A DNA stretch of 64,000 bases. It comes from Thiomicrorhabdus xiamenensis (GTDB lineage Bacteria > Pseudomonadota > Gammaproteobacteria > Thiomicrospirales > Thiomicrospiraceae). The translations under genes were made by a program, and so were the position numbers. The notes under the pieces are model-generated. The model made no database searches. It was given only the letters and a program-made list of their open reading frames with translations, and was not told the origin of the DNA. The stretch spans positions 1,550,001 through 1,614,000 of the forward strand of contig NZ_CP054020.1 of assembly GCF_013282625.1 (NCBI RefSeq), given 5' to 3'. This document shows, one piece after another, positions 17,551-27,711 of the stretch; position 1 is the stretch's first letter; the number at the start of each line of letters is the position of its first letter.

Positions 17551-18813
17551 TTAAAAGATTTTACTGACCAGAACGTGTTTTTCACCTTCGGATTTAGCAA
17601 TGACCGCCGCACCGACCGAATCACTGAAGACGTTAACCGTGGTACGCATCATATCCAAAAGGCGGTCGACCACCATTAGCAGACCGATGGCTTCGGCAGG
17701 CAAACCAACCGCAACCAGAATAATCGAGATCGCCACCAGGCTTGCCGAAGGAATTCCCGCCACCCCGATAGAAGTCGTCAAAGCAATGAACACGATCAAT
17801 ACCTGCGTACTTAAATCAAGCGGCACACCGAAAAGCTGGGCAATAAAAATCGCCGCGACACACTCATACAAAGCCGTCCCATCCATATTGATCGTCGCTC
17901 CCAGAGGCAGAACAAAACTGGTGACACGGTTGGATACCCCGGCACGATGTTCCAGCGAGTTCATCGTCACCGGTAAGGTCGACGACGATGAACTGGTGGA
18001 AAAAGCGGTCAAAAGTGCCGGAAGCATCGCCTGATAATGCAGCCATGGATTTTTAACGCCACCGATAAAGCGCAGTATCATCGGCATGACAACGGCGAAA
18101 TGAATCAATAATGCCGAGACAACCGTCACAAAGAACAGCGCCAGATTATCGAACTGCGCAAAACCGTTTTTGGCAACCGAAGACGCAACGAGACCAAATA
18201 CCCCGATCGGCGCAAATTTCATAATCAGCCCTGTCATCAGCATCATGACGTCGAAGACCCCTTGCCAGAAATTCTGAAGGGTTTCCTGAGCCGCGCCTTT
18301 GATCTGAGTCATAAAAAAACCGAATAACAAACTGAAGAAGATCAGTCCCAACATCTGCCCTTCAGCGGCAGCTTCGACCACATTGGTCGGAATCATGCGC
18401 AGAAATACATCAACGGCATCACCGGCCGAGCGCCCTTCGATCACTTCGCTGATATGTTCTTGCGATTCAAGTTGCGGCGGAGGTTGATCGCTGACGCCGG
18501 GCTGAATGATATTCACCATCGTCAGACCGATAATGACCGCAATGAAACTGGTAAACAGATAGTAAGAGATCGTTTTAAGCCCCAAACGGCCAAAACCGCC
18601 ATTGGAGCCGATACCCGAAACGCCGGTAATGATCGCCGAGACCACCAGCGGTACAACAATCATTTTCAATGCATTCAGGAAAAGCGTTCCGATAAAGGTA
18701 TACACAGCCAGCCAGTGCACCCCCAGAATGGTCCCTTCTTCACCGCTCCAGGTTCCCATTACCACCGCCAGTAGCAAGGCGATCAGAATTTGCCAGTGCA
18801 AGGCCAATCTCAT
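17551..18813 (-). CDS. Dicarboxylate/amino acid:cation symporter (DAACS family)
   Basis: This 420-aa inner-membrane transporter couples uptake of C4-dicarboxylates or acidic amino acids to Na+ or H+. About eight membrane helices are apparent. The family's serine-rich re-entrant loop (FSTSSSSSTLPVT) and the NMDGTALYE motif are intact. GltP, GltT and DctA all belong here and I cannot choose the substrate. It is flanked by terminators on both sides and appears monocistronic. Confidence 0.88.
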   Translation of the reverse strand: MRLALHWQILIALLLAVVMGTWSGEEGTILGVHWLAVYTFIGTLFLNALKMIVVPLVVSAIITGVSGIGSNGGFGRLGLKTISYYLFTSFIAVIIGLTMVNIIQPGVSDQPPPQLESQEHISEVIEGRSAGDAVDVFLRMIPTNVVEAAAEGQMLGLIFFSLLFGFFMTQIKGAAQETLQNFWQGVFDVMMLMTGLIMKFAPIGVFGLVASSVAKNGFAQFDNLALFFVTVVSALLIHFAVVMPMILRFIGGVKNPWLHYQAMLPALLTAFSTSSSSSTLPVTMNSLEHRAGVSNRVTSFVLPLGATINMDGTALYECVAAIFIAQLFGVPLDLSTQVLIVFIALTTSIGVAGIPSASLVAISIILVAVGLPAEAIGLLMVVDRLLDMMRTTVNVFSDSVGAAVIAKSEGEKHVLVSKIF

Positions 18814-18846
18814 AACAATCTCCAGTTGTGTATTTTTTTCAGCTAT

Positions 18847-18875
18847 AAAAAAAGCGCCTTATACAGCGCTTTTTA
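18847..18875 (-). terminator. Terminator of the rhodanese gene
   Basis: AAAAAGCGC (18849-18857) and GCGCTTTTT (18866-18874) form a hairpin with an 8-nt loop and a T run on the minus strand. It separates the rhodanese gene from the symporter gene. Confidence 0.8.
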
Positions 18876-18893
18876 CTCAACAAGACGGCTTAA

Positions 18894-19187
18894 TTAAGCG
18901 TCCGGGCATTGGTGCCAAGCCATATAAGGCCCTAGATTATATACTTCTGCAAAGCCCATAGACAGAAGCATCTGCATCGCCATTTGCGAACGCTGACCTG
19001 AACGGCAGAAAACGACTACCGGACGAGATTTATCCAGCTGCGCCGCCAGTCGATCCAATTCTTGTAAAGGAAGGTTGGTTGCTTCAGGAATTTTGCTCGC
19101 TTCGTATTCTTCCGGAGTACGAACATCGACAAGCTGGGCATTTTTGTTTTTGACTAATTGTTTCGCTTCTTCACATGCGATAAACAT
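18894..19187 (-). CDS. Single-domain rhodanese (sulfurtransferase)
   Basis: This 97-aa cytoplasmic rhodanese domain carries sulfane sulfur as a Cys persulfide. The VDVRTPEEY segment and the active-site loop CRSGQRS are intact, so catalysis is likely. It resembles GlpE- and PspE-type proteins without a signal peptide. The ATG at 19187 with GGAGA upstream is preferred over a TTG 15 nt earlier. With the persulfide dioxygenase at 5 kb it suggests active sulfane-sulfur handling, but the two are not linked. Confidence 0.9.
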   Translation of the reverse strand: MFIACEEAKQLVKNKNAQLVDVRTPEEYEASKIPEATNLPLQELDRLAAQLDKSRPVVVFCRSGQRSQMAMQMLLSMGFAEVYNLGPYMAWHQCPDA

Positions 19188-19422
19188 GACATCTATCTCC
19201 AAACTACTGTTTATTTTTTAATTTGCAGGTAATAATACAGAAATATTCGATAATCTCAATATCAACAAATCCATTTTAATAAATAAATTTTATCGCCAAA
19301 TACACCAAAAAACGAAAAGTCGAGATTTTAATATCAAAATCGCTCACTTCTCATTTTGAACGACTCTACTCATTAAACACCCCTTATTTCAGCAAACACT
19401 GAAATCCTTTCTCCTGCCGGAC

Positions 19423-19926
19423 TTACCACACAAGCGCATAAACCAGCCAAATTGACACTGCGGCAAAGATTGCGGCAATGACATCATCGGCCATAATACC
19501 GAAACCACCTTCCAAATGCGTATCGAGCCACTTGATCGGCCAAGGCTTCACTATATCGAAAAAGCGGAAGGCGATAAACGCCGCCAGCCAGGCAAGCCAA
19601 CTCTGCTCCGGTAACAGAACCATCACTATCCAGATACCGACAAATTCATCCCAGACAATTCCACCGTGATCATGCACGCCTATCGCATCGGCCGATTTCT
19701 GGCAAATCCAGCTACCGGCGAACAGCCCGATTAAGAGAACAATCCAGGCCGCCGTTTCCGACCACAATAAAATCGGCAGAAACAGAATCAGCCCAGCCAA
19801 AGTGCCCCAGGTTCCCGGCGCCGGTGTAATCAGGCCGGAACCGAGACCGTAGCCCAGAAACTGGGCAGGGTCTTTAACGATTTGGTTGAATGGGGGCGCA
19901 GGAATTTTATTTTTGTGATTAGACAT
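19423..19926 (-). CDS. pgpA: Phosphatidylglycerophosphatase A
   Basis: PgpA dephosphorylates phosphatidylglycerophosphate to phosphatidylglycerol at the inner membrane. The 167-aa protein has the GTWGTLAGL segment, the HDHGGIVWDEFVG motif with acidic residues, and DDVIAAI near the end, with several membrane helices. In many relatives pgpA follows thiL. Here thiL is about 38 kb away. The intergenic stretch below it (19188-19422) is AT-rich, with a small ATTTCAG/CTGAAAT hairpin at 19386-19405. Confidence 0.93.
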   Translation of the reverse strand: MSNHKNKIPAPPFNQIVKDPAQFLGYGLGSGLITPAPGTWGTLAGLILFLPILLWSETAAWIVLLIGLFAGSWICQKSADAIGVHDHGGIVWDEFVGIWIVMVLLPEQSWLAWLAAFIAFRFFDIVKPWPIKWLDTHLEGGFGIMADDVIAAIFAAVSIWLVYALVW

Positions 19927-20063
19927 AATTTATTAGATAGCGACTTTATAAGGATATTGGAGAGTATTTTACGGAAAAAGAATCTGAACAGAAAATTTAG
20001 CCGCTAAATTCTTGTGTATCGATTATTTTCAACACCGCCCTTGTTAGAAGATTCTAAATGATT

Positions 20064-21005
20064 CTATTCTGCTTTCTCTTGCAGCATCTTTTGTGCACAC
20101 TGTCGAACAGCCGGGTCTGAATCCTTGGCTAATTCTCGAATAGCTAAGTCGGCCGGAGCATTGTGCATGGCACCCAAAATCTGGCAGAGCTGTACTCGTT
20201 TTTGAGTCTGCCGGTTTTCACGCGAGTAGTTATTCAATTCTTGCCTTATATCGGCAACCGCAGCAGAACCGAGACGGATAAGCCCATTTGCCGCACTTTC
20301 CTGGGTCTGCGGTTCTTCGTCCGGCTGAATTGCTGAAACAAGTACCGGTGCCGCCCGGGCATCAACGATCTGCGCCAAAGCTGCAATTGCTTCATCACGG
20401 GTTTCCGCCATCCAGGCGGATTGTATAAGGACAGGCACCGCTCGAGAGTCCCCTATCGCACCCAGCGCCTGGGCGCTCATTTCTCTGCCCAGCCAATCTT
20501 CATCAGCAAGTTGCAGTAAATCCGTAAGCAGCGGAATCGCCCTTACATCTTTTAGCCGGCCAAGAGTCGGAATAATTTCCGCCCAGATCCCAGTCCTTTG
20601 ATTAAGGTCTTCTTTGAGTAAACTTAGCAATTCAGGGACATCAGATTTTTCTGCAAGCAGACAGAACTGACGAATGCCGCGACTTTTCTCTTCAAGGTCG
20701 TTTGATTGGACCCGTTGCAAGGCCTGCTTTTTTTCACATTGACGATGACATTCAGTCATTATTGCCTCAAACCCCATTGCGACATTCTGATGGCGTCTTT
20801 GGCACTGCTCCAGGCAGTTTTGCATCGCAAACTCTTGAATTTCATCGAATGCCTGCCGGTTCTCCTGCAAAGAATCCCTGACCACAGGATCCGATTTCGT
20901 TTGTGGATGCTTGCTGCTCAAATTATCCGCTAATGCCTGCAAGGGAAGCTGCAGCAGAAAAAAGAAAATAAATAGGTTGTGAAGTTTATGGATCATGCAG
21001 GACAT
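20064..21005 (-). CDS. Periplasmic HEAT-repeat protein with a twin CX3C motif
   Basis: I do not recognise a named gene. The 313-aa product begins with a signal peptide ending near ALADN. The mature N-terminus has CLEQC, 17 residues, then CHRQC, a twin CX3C arrangement that could form a disulfide-locked helical hairpin. The rest is HEAT or PBS-lyase-type repeats, seen as recurring AIPLLTDLL, AVPVLIQSA and AAPVLVSAI units, followed by a region with further Cys. A scaffold or chaperone-like binding role is possible. The start could also be the ATG at 20996. It stands alone. Confidence 0.7.
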   Translation of the reverse strand: MSCMIHKLHNLFIFFFLLQLPLQALADNLSSKHPQTKSDPVVRDSLQENRQAFDEIQEFAMQNCLEQCQRRHQNVAMGFEAIMTECHRQCEKKQALQRVQSNDLEEKSRGIRQFCLLAEKSDVPELLSLLKEDLNQRTGIWAEIIPTLGRLKDVRAIPLLTDLLQLADEDWLGREMSAQALGAIGDSRAVPVLIQSAWMAETRDEAIAALAQIVDARAAPVLVSAIQPDEEPQTQESAANGLIRLGSAAVADIRQELNNYSRENRQTQKRVQLCQILGAMHNAPADLAIRELAKDSDPAVRQCAQKMLQEKAE

Positions 21006-21283
21006 CCCGAAAAGGTCTAAAGGCGAATCGGTTTACAGCGTAAAAACTGAAAAAACTCTACCGCATCATACAATGGAGTCAAAAAGCGTGTAAAGGCATA
21101 CCCTACCCGAAGATAGATGCTGCAAACCCATGAATAATAAAAAGGTAAAGTTGAACAGAAAATTTCTTCTGATTTATGAGTATTAAAAAAAATACTTTAG
21201 ACCCTGTTGAAAATTCAATCTATGAAAATCATACTAGATAAGCCATAGCTCTCAAGCTTTTCAGAGAATTCCGGAGGACAAGA

Positions 21284-22300
21284 ATGAAAAAAATCAGCAT
21301 GATGCGAATGATCTTGATGGGCTTTCTGCTCATTACCTTTACCCTGCAGACCGCGCAGGCGGACACTCTGGCTGAAAAGAAACGGTGGTATAACGAACTT
21401 AACCAGATGGTTAAAGACCCCAATGTCCTCTGGCTTCCCACCTCCATCTTTATGGAGGATGTACAGTTTTTGACCATTGATCAGGTCAAAAGAAATATCA
21501 CCCAAAATCTCCTTTCCAATCCACAGTTTAATGTCCACACCTCGCGCGAATTTCTTGAGCAATATATCCGAACATCGATCAGACAAAGTATTGAGCTCTC
21601 CAATTTATCAAAGCTACATGCAAAACAGACCCTACTTCCTCAGTTGGCAGATGAAATCCAACGTTTGGAGTCGCAACAGGGAAATGACTGGCGCAAAGGC
21701 GGGAAAGAATTCAGAGATCTGATGACTGAATTAAATTCTCGTCCCGCTCCGGATTATTCAGCAGGCTCTAACCAGGCCATCTCTGATAATAACGAACCAC
21801 ACTACGCCTCCTGTCCGAAGTTCAATACCAAAAGTAAGCGTTGCTGGCCTGCCTATACAAGTGGTGTAACCGGTGGCAACACCTATACCCAATGCTGCTA
21901 TTATGCAGGGAGCGGCAGCCATATCATTTCTGAAACTCCCTATCTTCACGGAAAAAAAGATGGCACCGAACTTCAATGGACCAAGCATTCAAATAGCTTC
22001 TATTTTGCCAAACGAAAAAACTGGAAAAACGGCAAACTTGACGGAATTTTTGAAACCTACACTTGGATGCCGGCAGTAAATGGGCCTTTTTTAACTTCGG
22101 TTGACCAATATAGCCAAGGGCAAAAAGTGGGGCACAGCGTTGATTATAAGGTTTCCGGTAAACGAATCGAGACTATTTGGTTTAACGGTGTTAGTGAAAA
22201 AATTTATTACTATAATCCAGACGGCTCTCTGGAAAAATGCGCTACAAAAGATCACGCCACCAGACGTTGGAGAGACTGCGATACAGGAAAACTCTGGTAA
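21284..22300 (+). CDS. Secreted protein with MORN-like repeats and six cysteines
   Basis: I recognise no named family. The 338-aa product has a clear signal peptide (to about TAQADT) and a strong GGAGGA ribosome site. Residues up to about 150 are charged and helical. The C-terminal half has six Cys (one pair adjacent, QCC) and GK-x-DG units such as LHGKKDG, WKNGKLDG and NPDGSLEK, resembling MORN or YwqK-type beta-hairpin repeats. It is probably periplasmic or secreted. The stop lies 124 bp before the KCG peptide gene on the same strand, so co-expression is possible. Confidence 0.7.
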   Translation: MKKISMMRMILMGFLLITFTLQTAQADTLAEKKRWYNELNQMVKDPNVLWLPTSIFMEDVQFLTIDQVKRNITQNLLSNPQFNVHTSREFLEQYIRTSIRQSIELSNLSKLHAKQTLLPQLADEIQRLESQQGNDWRKGGKEFRDLMTELNSRPAPDYSAGSNQAISDNNEPHYASCPKFNTKSKRCWPAYTSGVTGGNTYTQCCYYAGSGSHIISETPYLHGKKDGTELQWTKHSNSFYFAKRKNWKNGKLDGIFETYTWMPAVNGPFLTSVDQYSQGQKVGHSVDYKVSGKRIETIWFNGVSEKIYYYNPDGSLEKCATKDHATRRWRDCDTGKLW

Positions 22301-22424
22301 TTTTTTTCATAAAAGAGTGTAAGGAATTCAAATCAACTGCGACTAAGTAGTGAACAACTCAAAACCCGGGCTTTAATCGCCCAGTTATTTAAGTTCAGCT
22401 TTTTATAAATCAGAGGTCGCTATC

Positions 22425-22670
22425 ATGAAAACCAAAACATTTTTTTACTCGATTCTTTCCGCAATGCTTTTGTCTGTATCGATGAATGCCAGCGCTGCTG
22501 CAGATAATCCTTTTACCACTATTCAGAACGGCTTTACAGTAATTGCACAGACCGAAACATCGGAAGGCAAATGCGGTACGGCCAAGTGTGGCGGTCAACA
22601 GAAAGAGGCAACAAAGTGCGGAGCCGTTCAACCCGCTCAAGAACCATCTAAATGCGGGGCCGGTAAATAA
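22425..22670 (+). CDS. Small secreted KCG-repeat peptide, bufferin/HvfA-like
   Basis: The 81-aa precursor has a signal peptide ending near NASAAADN and a mature part of about 55 residues. All four Cys occur as K-C-G, and the first is within EGKCG, the motif modified to thioamide/oxazolone pairs in Haemophilus HvfA. The mature part is low-complexity and rich in Gln, Ala and Lys. In the known family such peptides bind copper and are matured by DUF692-type iron oxygenases. No such enzyme is adjacent here. The DoxX, sigma and anti-sigma genes downstream match the family's usual company. Confidence 0.8.
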   Translation: MKTKTFFYSILSAMLLSVSMNASAAADNPFTTIQNGFTVIAQTETSEGKCGTAKCGGQQKEATKCGAVQPAQEPSKCGAGK

Positions 22671-22763
22671 ACTCATTACTTTGTCTAACCGTCCTGGGCA
22701 TACGATGATCTAGATTCTATGCTCAGGTCTTCCTTTCTCTCCTCAATTCAAAGGAGAAAGATC

Positions 22764-23384
22764 ATGAACACGCTTATCATAAAATCTGCCAACCTCTATC
22801 AGACGGCTCTTTCAGGATTAATGCATTTTGACGGCTTGGCGCCACTATTACTGCGCCTCTATCTTGCCCCGATCTTTATGCAGGCTGGCTGGAATAAACT
22901 GGCTAACTTTTCGGACACCGCCGCCTGGTTTGGTAACCCTGAATGGGGGCTCGGACTGCCCTTTCCCGAACTGATGACCCTACTCGCCGGCGGCTCGGAA
23001 TTTCTTGGCGGTATCGCTTTGATTGTCGGCTTGGCAGTGCGCTGGTTCTCGATCCCCTTAATGATCACCATGATTGTTGCCGCTGTCACTGTACACTGGC
23101 CTAACGGCTGGCTGGCTATTTCAGATGCTTCAAGCTGGCTCGCCAATCAACAGGTATTGGATGCACAGCAGCAGCTGGCGATGAGCCATCAAATTCTACA
23201 AATGCACGGTAATTTTGAATGGCTGACCAGTAATGGACAGATTGTTATTCTCAATAACGGGATTGAATTTGCCGCTACCTACTTCATAATGCTATTAAGT
23301 CTGCTGTTTACCGGCGGCGGTCGTTATGTCAGTGCCGACTATTGGATTCACCGTTGGATACAAGGAGACGCGACAAATCGATAA
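22764..23384 (+). CDS. DoxX family membrane protein (HvfX-like)
   Basis: This 206-aa protein has about four membrane helices and DoxX features: LLLRLYLAPIFMQAGWNKL at the start and LAGGSEFLGGIALIVG in the middle. The ATG at 22764 with AAGGAGAAAG just before it is much better than the upstream reading start. It follows the KCG peptide by 93 bp and precedes the ECF sigma gene by 29 bp. DoxX proteins commonly accompany bufferin-type clusters. The molecular role is not established, though a membrane redox function is often suggested. Confidence 0.88.
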   Translation: MNTLIIKSANLYQTALSGLMHFDGLAPLLLRLYLAPIFMQAGWNKLANFSDTAAWFGNPEWGLGLPFPELMTLLAGGSEFLGGIALIVGLAVRWFSIPLMITMIVAAVTVHWPNGWLAISDASSWLANQQVLDAQQQLAMSHQILQMHGNFEWLTSNGQIVILNNGIEFAATYFIMLLSLLFTGGGRYVSADYWIHRWIQGDATNR

Positions 23385-23413
23385 GAGTCAATACAAGGAA
23401 GGCTGAATAATCA

Positions 23414-24013
23414 ATGCCAGCGGAACCATGTCAAAATTGCAGCCAAGCAGAATTCGAACAACGCATAGATCCTCTGCGACCTAGGCTGATTGCCTTTGCA
23501 AAATCACATCTGAAATTCGAAGCAGATGCCGAAGACGCGGTTCAGGAATGTTTAATAAGCGCCTGGAAACGATTAGAAAAATTTGAGGGCAAATCATCGC
23601 TGGAAACCTGGGTATTTGGCATTTTGCGACACAAATTGATTGACCTTTATCGTCGCCACTCAAAAATTCAGACTTTCGAATATGACGAATCAAAGCTACC
23701 CGATACCGACGGCTGGTTTCAAAAAGACGAACACTGGCACAACGAACATGCGCCTTCGAGCTGGAGTAGCCCTTATCAAACGTTGGAAAACGAACATTTT
23801 TGGCAAGTGTTTGATATCTGTGTCTTTCACTTGCCGGAACAGACTTCGCGCGTATTTACCCTACGCGAGTTTATGGGGTTTGAAACTTCACAAATTTGCG
23901 AATCTCTGCAAATTACCGAACACAACTGCTGGACCATTCTGCACCGCGCACGACTAAGACTGCGCGCCTGCTTGGAACAAAACTGGTTCACAGCGCAGGA
24001 GAAACCATTATGA
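23414..24013 (+). CDS. ECF-family RNA polymerase sigma factor
   Basis: This 199-aa sigma70 relative has region 2 (DAEDAVQECLISAWKRL, then GILRHKLIDLYRR) and region 4 (LPEQTSRVFTLREFMGF ... TEHNCWTILHRARLRLR) joined by a linker, with no regions 1 or 3. An N-terminal CQNC pair is present. It overlaps the anti-sigma gene by 4 nt (ATGA). Given its place it probably controls the KCG peptide operon. No promoter was confidently found. Confidence 0.92.
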   Translation: MPAEPCQNCSQAEFEQRIDPLRPRLIAFAKSHLKFEADAEDAVQECLISAWKRLEKFEGKSSLETWVFGILRHKLIDLYRRHSKIQTFEYDESKLPDTDGWFQKDEHWHNEHAPSSWSSPYQTLENEHFWQVFDICVFHLPEQTSRVFTLREFMGFETSQICESLQITEHNCWTILHRARLRLRACLEQNWFTAQEKPL

Positions 24014-24210
24014 AAGCAATGAGTTCCTGTAAACACGCTACCGCACTGATGTCGCAAAAACAGGACCGCAAACTGACCTTTAAAGAGCAATCCTGGCTGA
24101 TGACTCATCTGGCCCTGTGCCACAACTGCCGCCGTTGCAACAAACAATTTGAGCTCTTGGACAAGGCTTGTGAACAGCGGCGAGAAACACTCGAAAAGGC
24201 CGATCAATAA
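24010..24210 (+). CDS. Zinc-finger anti-sigma factor (zf-HC2 type), small
   Basis: This 66-aa soluble protein has an early Cys (SSCKHA) and the HLALCHNCRRC segment, matching the H-x3-C-x2-C zinc motif of ZAS anti-sigma domains. It has no membrane helix or periplasmic domain, so sensing would be cytoplasmic. The start overlaps the sigma stop by 4 nt, the usual coupling for such pairs. Confidence 0.82.
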   Translation: MKAMSSCKHATALMSQKQDRKLTFKEQSWLMTHLALCHNCRRCNKQFELLDKACEQRRETLEKADQ

Positions 24211-24413
24211 TTTTCAATCGAACCTGATTCCTAATAAACCGCCCTCTCTCGCTCAACAGATTGAGAGAGAACGCTACAATTTATCAGGAGCAGGAATTTT
24301 ATTTTTATATTGAAACGTCAAGAACGGTGCTTAAAAAGAATGGGCACGAATGCAAAACGACGCTGCATCATTTCGAGATTAAACCGCAAATTGCTACCGT
24401 GACAGGTTTTTAA

Positions 24414-25244
24414 TTACTCCGACGCTTCCATCACTATCACGACACCCGAAGGGTCGAACTCCTTAACGATCTGACGCACGCTCTGTACTTTATTATTATC
24501 GATAATAAGCATCAGCAATCGTCGCTCGTTTCCGGTGTGCAGCATTTCGCCCTCTAGAATCATGCCGCCTTCGTGTCCCAATTTATGCATCAGCTGCATT
24601 TTAATGGTTTCGGCATTGTCCGAGGAGATATGCACGACTTTCTTGGACGGACGTCCGGAGAGAATCAGATTGATGCCTCGTCCGCTGACATAGACCCCCA
24701 ATAAACTCCACAGCATACTGTCAAGATTAGGGAAAACAAACCCCGCCGAAAAAACGATCAAAGCATCGACAAGGATAACCATATTCCCCTCTTTCCAATG
24801 CGTTTTGCGCGCAACAATGCCGACAATGATCGACGGACCTCCCGGGGAGGCGCTGGAATGAAGAATCAACCCGACTCCCAGGCCGATAAACATTCCGCCA
24901 AACACCGCCGCAAGGACAGGCTCATGAGTCAGAGCAGGAAGTTTTAGGAGCTCCAGCAAAATATCCGTAGAGAGTGCAATAACGAGAATCGCAAAAACGG
25001 TTCGAAACGCATAACCGCGTCCGATAAACTTTATGCTGATGAGAATCAGAGGGATATTGATCGCCAACATAATCATCCCGACGGAAAAGCCTGTGAAATA
25101 ATTCACCAGAATCGCCATCCCGGGCGTTCCGCCGGAGGTGATTTCGTTTGGAACCAACAACAGACTCACTCCGCTAGCCAGAACCATCCCGCCGACAAGG
25201 ATCAGCAGATAACGGCTCAATTCTTTGGTGTATTTCGTTTGCAT
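24414..25244 (-). CDS. YitT family membrane protein (DUF161 + DUF2179)
   Basis: This 276-aa protein has five or so membrane helices (DUF161) with glycine-rich GGTPGMAIL and SSASPGGPSIIVG segments, then a cytoplasmic C-terminal DUF2179 domain (about the last 80 residues). The physiological role of this widespread family is not established. The ATG at 25244 has AAGGAAAATC upstream. It lies between the anti-sigma gene (convergent) and argG (upstream, same strand). Confidence 0.88.
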   Translation of the reverse strand: MQTKYTKELSRYLLILVGGMVLASGVSLLLVPNEITSGGTPGMAILVNYFTGFSVGMIMLAINIPLILISIKFIGRGYAFRTVFAILVIALSTDILLELLKLPALTHEPVLAAVFGGMFIGLGVGLILHSSASPGGPSIIVGIVARKTHWKEGNMVILVDALIVFSAGFVFPNLDSMLWSLLGVYVSGRGINLILSGRPSKKVVHISSDNAETIKMQLMHKLGHEGGMILEGEMLHTGNERRLLMLIIDNNKVQSVRQIVKEFDPSGVVIVMEASE

Positions 25245-25386
25245 GATTTTCCTTTTTTTACAGTGCAAGCAACTCTATTGCGCCAACAAGAGAGAACTCT
25301 CAATATACAGGAAGTACTGACATTTGTAGTTTTCGCAGAAGCGATCGACGGATGCTCGATCAAATTTCGCCAAAACAACCAGAAAC

Positions 25387-25422
25387 AAAAAAGGCGCTGA
25401 TGAAAATCACCAGCGCCTTTCT
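25387..25422 (-). terminator. Terminator of argG
   Basis: AAAGGCGCTG (25390-25399) and CAGCGCCTTT (25411-25420) form a 10-bp stem with an 11-nt loop. A T run follows on the minus strand, just below argG. Confidence 0.88.
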
Positions 25423-25452
25423 TTTTAACAACATTCTTTGATTAGAACGAGT

Positions 25453-26664
25453 TTATTTACCGCGTTTTTTCGCCGCTGTACGCAGACGCAGCGCGTTCAG
25501 CTTAATAAAGCCTTCTGCGTCTTTATGGTTGTATGCACCGCCGTCGTCTTCAAAAGTCGCAATCGCTTCGTCGAACAGGCTGTTTTCAGAAGTACGACCC
25601 ACACAAACCACATTACCTTTGTACAATTTAATGCGAACGTTACCGGAAACATTTTCCTGAGACTTGTCGATCATCGCCTGCAGCATTTCACGCTCCGGAG
25701 CAAACCAGAATCCGTTATAGATCATCTCGGCATACTTCGGCATTAATTCGTCTTTCAGGTGCGCGGCATTACGATCCAGAGTAATCGATTCCATTGCGCG
25801 GTGCGCCTTAAGCATAATGGTTCCCGCCGGTGTTTCGTAACAACCACGCGCTTTCATACCGACAAAACGGTTTTCAACCAAGTCGTCACGACCGATACCG
25901 TTTTCGCCACCGACTTTATTCAGGTATTCCATCACGGTTGCCGGAGACATGGCTTCACCGTTAATCGCTACAATATCACCTTTCTCATAAGTGATATCCA
26001 GATAGGTCGGCTGATCCGGTGCATTTTCCGGTGAAACTGTCCACAGCCACATATCTTCTTCCGGCTCATTCGCAGGATCTTCGATAATGCCGCCTTCATA
26101 AGAGATGTGCAGCAGGTTGGCGTCCATAGAGTAAGGCGATTTTTTGCCTTTTTTCTTCTCGATGGAAATTCCGTGTTCTTCAGCATACGCCATCAGTTTT
26201 TCACGGGACATCAGATCCCACTCACGCCAAGGCGCGATGACTTTAACGTCCGGCATCAGAGAGTAAGCATTAAGTTCGAAACGGACTTGATCGTTCCCTT
26301 TACCGGTTGCGCCGTGAGAGATTGCGTCCGCACCGGTTTCCTGAGCGATTTCGACCAGACGTTTGGAAATAAGCGGACGAGCGATTGAAGTTCCAAGACG
26401 GTATTCACCCTCGTAGATCGCATTGGCACGCATCATCGGGAAAACGAAATCACGCGCGAACTCTTCACGCAAATCTTCGATATAGATCTCTTTAATGCCC
26501 ATCGCCTGCGCTTTAGCTCGAGCCGGCTCAATCTCTTCACCCTGACCGATATCGGCAGTGAATGTAACGACTTCGCAGTTATACTCATCTTGCAACCACT
26601 TAGCGATAATTGAGGTATCAAGGCCGCCAGAGTAGGCTAAAACGACTTTTTTAACTTCGGACAT
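25453..26664 (-). CDS. argG: Argininosuccinate synthase
   Basis: ArgG joins citrulline and aspartate with ATP in arginine synthesis. The 403-aa protein opens with the nucleotide loop [12 protein letters not shown], followed by the TADIGQGEE segment and the [16 protein letters not shown] motif typical of the family. Length is normal. It stands as a single gene, with a strong terminator and a perfect -10 upstream; no other arg gene is near. Confidence 0.97.
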
Positions 26665-26720
26665 TGCTGATTTCCTTTCCCGGTTTCTTAAAAATTTTGT
26701 GTCTTCTATGAATTGCGCGG

Positions 26721-26749
26721 ATTATACCTTAAAATCCACATCTTAGAGA
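26721..26749 (-). promoter_or_regulatory. Probable argG promoter
   Basis: A perfect minus-strand TATAAT (26721-26726) lies about 57 nt before the argG ATG. At 17-nt spacing the -35 is only TCTCTA, so strength or activator dependence is uncertain. Confidence 0.45.
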
Positions 26750-26838
26750 AATAAACAAAGGGATTTTAGGTGGATTTTTTATCTTCCAATCTCTGTTTGA
26801 ATGATGATTTTACAGCCCTCTCGAGGCGGGACGACACT

Positions 26839-27711
26839 ATGACCAAGTTACTCGACTTTTTTAAAGTCACTCCTCAATATCTTATTCCCCAGCATCTGCT
26901 GTCGAGCCTGATGCACTGGTTTATGCATGTCGAGGTGAAATGGATCAAAAACGGCATTATCAGACTGTTGACCCGACTGTACGGGATCAATCTCGACGAG
27001 GCCGCCAGCAGTGACCCGAACGACTATCCGCATTTCAACGCCTTTTTCACCCGTGAATTGAAAAAAGACGCCCGCTTGATCGATGAAACGCCGAATTCCT
27101 GGTGTTCGCCGGTTGACGGTCTGGTCAGCCAGTCATGCAAAATCGAACAGGGCAAAATCCTCCAGGCCAAATGCCACTATTACTCGGTTGAAGCCCTCGT
27201 TGGCGGTGACATTGAATATGCCAAACAGTTCCATAACGGCGATGCGGCGGTTATCTATCTTTCGCCGAAGGACTACCACCGTATTCATATGCCAAGCGAT
27301 GCCAAATTGATTTCCATGACGTATGTTCCGGGAGATTTATTTGCGGTCAATCCGGCCACGGTCAGAAACGTTGAAGGTCTGTTCGCACGCAACGAGCGTC
27401 TGGTTCTGCGCTTTGAAAACGAACACGGTCCCTTCTGTCTGGTTATGGTAGGCGCGATTTTTGTCGGTTCGATGGAAACCGTTTTCCAGGGCAAAATTAC
27501 ACCGGAATACCGCCCGACCATCGAATATTGGGATTATTCTGATCAGGATTTGCACTATGCAAAAGGCGATGAAATCGGCCGTTTTAATATGGGATCGACC
27601 GTTGTTCTGCTCACTCCGGAAAATCAAATGCCCGATTTAGGAAAAATCCCTGCGAATACCCCTATTCAAATGGGACAACATCTGGCAGACTATCCAGATA
27701 CATTGGCGTAA
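26839..27711 (+). CDS. psd: Phosphatidylserine decarboxylase proenzyme
   Basis: Psd converts phosphatidylserine to phosphatidylethanolamine at the inner membrane. The 290-aa proenzyme shows SPVDG (Asp), the YHRIHMP segment (His) and [12 protein letters not shown], where self-cleavage at Gly-Ser creates the pyruvoyl group. The MTKLLDFFK start at 26839 has GAGGCGGG upstream; a GTG 69 nt earlier is less likely. Length is normal. Confidence 0.96.

Follow-up and report, generated by a model that had tools for sequence, protein, structure and literature searches.

The main finding of this study is that a captophorin/bufferin-type (HvfA-HvfX) stress operon in a marine sulfur bacterium probably works without the enzymes MNIO and DUF2063, exporting an unmodified thiol peptide that would act as a metal or redox buffer. 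The operon has four genes and a conserved promoter of its own, and lies in the window, i.e., the whole stretch of 64,000 nucleotides that was analysed, in a genome with no match to either enzyme family.

A four-gene operon with its own promoter

The four genes—encoding an HvfA-like peptide, a DoxX protein, an ECF sigma factor, and a ZAS anti-sigma factor—lie head to tail on the forward strand (22425–24210), just as an earlier sequence-only reading of this DNA had claimed. The hvfA-like gene (22425–22670) encodes 81 residues with a signal-like N terminus and an NPF motif, and all four cysteines are in KCG motifs, including one EGKCG and one KCGxxKCG pair. The peptide scores above the cut-off of domain model NF050137 (KCGExKCG; 24.7 bits, cut-off 19.5) and far under that of the HvfA equivalog NF050188 (27.2 bits, cut-off 95), and went undetected when the whole genome was scanned at E ≤ 0.001. 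The hvfX gene (22764–23384) encodes a DoxX/HvfX-family membrane protein of 206 residues with no cysteine, which matches NF050144 (232.8 bits, cut-off 80) and Pfam DoxX (83.7 bits, cut-off 23.6) and which NCBIfam names as a maturation protein. Its AlphaFold2 model (mean pLDDT 81.9) had no Foldseek match in the PDB at E ≤ 0.001, the best E being 0.81. The ECF sigma factor (23414–24013) is a TIGR02943 member with regions 2 and 4 (217.4 bits, cut-off 162.2), and its matches among 150 plasmid records were all below 60% identity. Its stop codon is overlapped (ATGA) by the gene for a small, zinc-binding-type anti-sigma factor (24010–24210), which matches zf-HC2 (26.9 bits, cut-off 22.2) and NF052368 (58.5 bits, cut-off 50). 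The ZAS motif C-x25-H-x3-C-x2-C is found in the anti-sigma factor of all four species in which we identified the operon; the motif has been defined, for Neisseria and Haemophilus anti-sigma factors, as C/H-x23-26-H-x3-C-x2-C (PMC7907618). Directly upstream of the promoter, at 21284–22300, is the gene for a secreted-looking 338-residue protein of no clear family, which adjoins the operon in one relative (G043) and not in two others (G029 and G031).

A putative ECF-type promoter, TGTAAGGA-N14-CGACTAAG, is located at 22318–22347 on the forward strand, with a T-rich tract upstream. It is kept in all four operon genomes, in each of which TGTAAGGA-N14-CGNCTAAG precedes hvfA. Written as GTAAGGAAT, 12 nt, and CGACTAAG, it is three positions off the consensus given for Neisseria sigma-E (GTMAGBWTT, 12-13 nt, CGTCTAAH; PMC2893595), one in the -35 element and two in the -10 element, with the last base counted. 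The exact pattern TGTAAGGN{14,16}CGNCTAA occurs once per operon genome (n = 4), always upstream of the peptide gene, and is absent from 12 other genomes of the genus, while a reversed control is absent from all 16. When up to two mismatches are allowed, the own genome has 32 sites vs 94 for the reversed control, a background too high for weaker sites to be told apart. Of 215 loci, 18 contain the pattern. Fifteen of these duplicate the four operon loci; two have it upstream of HvfA elsewhere (Solemya velum symbiont, L205; Marinobacterium halophilum, L158); and in the last (L194) it is inside a sigma gene and is probably a chance match.

A survey of the best 80 of 156 confirmed HvfX loci in named genomes revealed how the same genes are arranged when the maturases are present. 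In the Solemya velum gill symbiont, one strand carries HvfA, MNIO, DUF2063, HvfX, sigma, and ZAS in this order. The same six genes are present in Acinetobacter haemolyticus, with HvfX divergent, and Marinobacterium halophilum has HvfA-MNIO-DUF2063-HvfX, while a Methylococcales contig carries sigma, ZAS, peptide, HvfX, and MNIO, after which the stretch ends with no DUF2063 match. Since full operons with the same promoter exist elsewhere, the operon in the window looks like a full operon minus its two maturase genes. The dedicated sigma/anti-sigma pair is not an uncommon trait among such operons: it is shared with the Solemya velum symbiont and Acinetobacter haemolyticus, both with MNIO, and with the Neisseria sigma-E operon (PMC3240639, PMC2893595). 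A sigma factor of the same kind is described as driving DoxX, DUF692, and DUF2063 genes in Neisseria and Haemophilus (PMC7907618, PMC3240639).

Both maturase families are absent from the genome

The absence of maturases from the whole window, noted from the sequence alone, holds and extends to the whole genome, in which we found no match at E ≤ 0.001 to PF05114 (MNIO/DUF692) or to PF09836 (DUF2063; 16 candidates scored). The genome being one contig of 2,594,948 bases, 100% complete, the option that the maturases are encoded elsewhere in it is excluded as far as these two models reach. PF05114 had no match in the three other operon genomes either, and a repeat of the search on the named records of Thiomicrorhabdus sp. 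6S3-12 (G043) and Thiomicrorhabdus marina (G029) again found none. A tblastn search of 19 loci for maturase remnants, with an MNIO and a DUF2063 protein of L032 as queries, gave a best E of 2.3. Among 62 genomes of the family, MNIO is present in 32 and a DUF2063 match in 33 (32 above cut-off); within the genus, 18 of 32 genomes have MNIO.

The usual MNIO site is marked by a DJ-1 family gene, which 25 of the 32 genus genomes match. Within 1.5 kb on each side of it, MNIO is found in seven of these 25 genomes, five of them with a KCG peptide detected; in two (G025 and G051) a KCG peptide is followed by the next conserved gene, with MNIO missing; six have neither; three, including the own genome, have ~1 kb of other DNA; and seven were not resolved. 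G025 and G051 have no MNIO genome-wide. In G025 (L097:4118-7420), another KCG peptide, a SigK-like ECF sigma factor, an RskA-type anti-sigma factor, and a DsbH/thioredoxin-like protein are encoded in a row on one strand—the second of the three genes after the peptide gene matching RskA_C (73 bits) and the third PF03190 Thioredox_DsbH (97 bits)—and G051 (L098) has the same arrangement. A KCG peptide beside a thioredoxin-like gene in genomes with no MNIO favours, indirectly, free thiols.

Conservation of the operon and signs of selection

Comparison of the operon across relatives, proposed earlier as a check, showed that the small ORF is conserved and that the four genes are kept in unchanged order in three further genomes (G043, G029, and G031; loci L063, L064, and L065, by tblastn). 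All four operon genomes are without MNIO. Identity to the window copies in the other three is 97, 81, and 77% for HvfX and 92, 67, and 64% for the sigma factor. Against the nearest genome, dN/dS is 0.173 for HvfX, 0.085 for the sigma factor, 0.12 for the anti-sigma factor, and 0.169 for the peptide, the last value resting on eight changes only (five synonymous and three non-synonymous) and perhaps blurred by recombination. Seven consecutive 200-bp blocks at 22000–23399, spanning the promoter, hvfA, and hvfX, are 96-100% identical to G043 and may be a recombination tract; the remaining blocks in 18000–27599 range from 72 to 99%.

In a midpoint-rooted tree built from two linked proteins (625 columns, 24 genomes), the four operon genomes group with G041 and G027 in a clade that is MNIO-less throughout (support 96). 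Neither G027 nor G041 has an HvfX match, and, as both are inside the operon clade, either two losses of the operon or more than one gain must be assumed. It is thus either dispensable or separately acquired, which counts against our main reading. HvfX has matches in 28 of the 62 family genomes (24 above cut-off). We rejected its presence as a marker of the operon, because all ten other genus loci that were read (L001-L006, L012, and L022-L024) have a FadL-type gene next to an HvfX paralogue, and none of them has a KCG peptide.

Peptide motifs and signals with and without MNIO

Across the family, 37 KCG peptides were tabulated, 27 of them from 27 of the 32 MNIO genomes (none was extracted from G007, G008, G013, G026, and G028) and ten from six MNIO-less genomes. 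The eight signal-peptide-type peptides of MNIO-less genomes have 52 of 52 cysteines within KCG, and each of them retains NPF and one or more KCGxxKCG pairs. This cysteine count is without two twin-arginine peptides that also have QCG motifs, i.e., the second peptides of the own genome (G000) and of G043 (L062). That of the own genome, encoded outside the window at ~827414-827935 of C1 (L061:7415-7936), has 173 residues with QGKCG/RGQCG repeats and a twin-arginine-type signal (TIGR01409, 18.1 bits, cut-off 16.7); its dN/dS is 0.085, with an approximate alignment of the repeats, and a 60-residue C-terminal remnant of HvfX directly precedes it.

Presence of MNIO goes along with the residues before KCG: Glu-Gly precedes 195 of 201 sites in MNIO genomes vs five of 75 in MNIO-less ones. 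The signal differs too, being twin-arginine-like in 25 of 27 peptides from MNIO genomes vs two of ten from MNIO-less genomes (Fisher p 4.6e-5, p-values being overstated by kinship). Precursors beside MNIOs with such signals include those at L009, L018, L020, L021, L032, L033, and L037, whereas Sec signals are described for HvfA-type precursors (PMC12452194). Since HvfA without its signal sequence is reported to be hardly modified in vitro (PMC13419390), the change of signal may also matter. An altered KCG motif was rejected as proof of non-modification, because AKCG-type precursors adjoin MNIOs in Acinetobacter, Methylococcales, and Marinobacterium, and FonBC is reported to modify an AKCGA substrate once and to tolerate Glu-to-Ala (PMC12668002). 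There is also an MNIO genome with a drifted motif (G034), whose MNIO fragment is closest by score to bufferin-type maturases.

Rarity of KCG peptides without MNIO

In 369 genomes of the same class, NF050137 was found in 97 and PF05114 in 221, and 94 of the 97 also have MNIO. The three exceptions are G197 (99% complete), which has intact EGKCG peptides, G395 (75% complete), and G424 (6% contamination). These figures are an estimate of rarity for the canonical motif only, in which drifted motifs are undercounted: both the own genome and G043 fail the NF050137 screen. Four HvfX loci without a nearby MNIO (L138, L140, L184, and L191; three with a KCG peptide) are in genomes with MNIO elsewhere, while a fifth, in a Chromatiales MAG (L169), is in a genome with none. 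The idea of maturase-free precursors is already in print: in Antoine et al. 2025 (PMC12452194), precursor genomes without maturases are mentioned as rare, and whether such orphan precursors work unmodified or are dead is left open. A search of the open-licence PMC literature found no worked example of a maturase-free operon and, among the matches listed, no relevant paper on orphan or Tat-exported bufferins.

Discussion

How might such an operon work? We propose that the ZAS anti-sigma factor would hold the ECF sigma factor until its Zn-Cys site senses a thiophilic metal or an oxidant. Once released, the sigma factor would read its one strong promoter, yielding peptide, HvfX, more sigma factor, and more anti-sigma factor. 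The peptide would be exported with its cysteines as plain thiols, and those in KCG and KCGxxKCG would bind Cu(I) or another soft metal in the periplasm, or serve there as a sacrificial thiol pool, with HvfX helping at the membrane and no need for thiooxazoles. That the peptide works unmodified, one of two options left by the sequence-only reading, gains support from the conservation of operon, promoter, and cysteines, although its mature form and its metal are predictions from sequence. The other part of that proposal, a distinct metal-buffering or redox system, is more aptly described as a known operon in maturase-free form. Loss of the maturases is the likeliest origin, because other genera have this operon together with both enzymes and the same promoter. 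Two further points count against our main reading. The peptide in the window has only four cysteines, and plain thiols may form disulfides in the periplasm, which is oxidising. A wider proposal, to which we give slightly less than even weight, is that this lineage of sulfur bacteria turned a captophorin system maturase-free, with KCG peptides under dedicated ECF sigma factors acting through plain thiols, and with a thioredoxin-like protein adjacent in one case.

Metal buffering and thiol redox protection are both in keeping with these data, and a peptide that serves chiefly as a thiol substrate for redox reactions or oxidant scavenging, rather than as a metal buffer, is an unlikely but serious contender. 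In Haemophilus, the RpoE2 system, whose anti-sigma factor is related, is described as responding to HOCl (PMC7907618), and the KCG peptides of G025 and G051 sit beside a thioredoxin-like protein; however, expression of meningococcal sigma-E is reported as unchanged by oxidative stimuli (PMC2893595), and characterised members bind copper, though in modified form (PMC12668002). We consider it improbable that some enzyme modifies the cysteines, be it from a family other than MNIO or an MNIO that has diverged beyond the reach of PF05114. This would fit the retention of HvfX, with its NCBIfam name, but the operon holds no enzyme gene, the EG context favoured by MNIO is lost, and PF05114 detects the MNIOs of relatives mostly at E near 1e-100, making a missed close homologue unlikely.

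There is little probability, too, that the operon is a decaying remnant in which peptide and HvfX linger, now idle, after loss of the maturases. This is one of the options named in Antoine et al. 2025 (PMC12452194), and both the HvfX remnant beside the second peptide and the lack of an HvfX match in G027 and G041 are in line with it. Against it, the four genes are open and conserved in four genomes with low dN/dS, the promoter is kept exactly, and no cysteine of the eight peptides has strayed from KCG. It is very improbable that the maturases exist but escaped assembly, as they might on a plasmid; the search does reach assembled contigs only, but the own genome is complete in one contig and the three related assemblies, one of them single-contig, are also without MNIO. 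The most probable reading is still a stress operon that exports an unmodified thiol peptide.

If the wider proposal on this lineage is true, thiooxazoles would be optional for an HvfA/HvfX stress response, and HvfX would act independently of MNIO chemistry. In the literature searched, the captophorins characterised all depend on MNIO and a partner. A conserved and strictly regulated natural operon without maturases lends itself to testing the contribution of the ring chemistry, since one peptide scaffold, HvfX, and promoter can be studied both in the presence and in the absence of maturases. It also uncouples HvfX from modification, and makes a testable question of whether the orphan precursors of Antoine et al. 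2025 are active unmodified or dead.

Comparison with known systems

Among the closest known systems is the hvf/captophorin (Buf_EGKCG, "oxazolin") operon, made of HvfA, HvfB (MNIO), HvfC (DUF2063), and HvfX. The operon in the window shares with it the secreted KCG-repeat peptide, HvfX, and the gene order minus two genes; it differs in that its genome is without MNIO and DUF2063, its motif is mostly A/S/T-KCG rather than EGKCG, and sigma and anti-sigma genes of its own lie downstream. Metallothioneins and copper storage proteins bind metal by plain cysteine thiols. The peptide in the window, likened to them by description only, would share this mode of binding and is, unlike them, exported.

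With Neisseria sigma-E/MseR and Haemophilus RpoE2/HrsE, placed in ECF group 13 in PMC7907618, the operon has in common an ECF sigma factor with a C-x25-H-x3-C-x2-C ZAS anti-sigma factor, a near-identical promoter, a small regulon, and a DoxX gene under control. While these regulons include DUF692 and DUF2063 genes and msrAB, the exact promoter matches in the window's genome are confined to the operon itself. Finally, in the operon of the Solemya velum symbiont, the promoter motif and the order of HvfA, HvfX, sigma, and ZAS are as in the window, but MNIO and DUF2063 stand between HvfA and HvfX.
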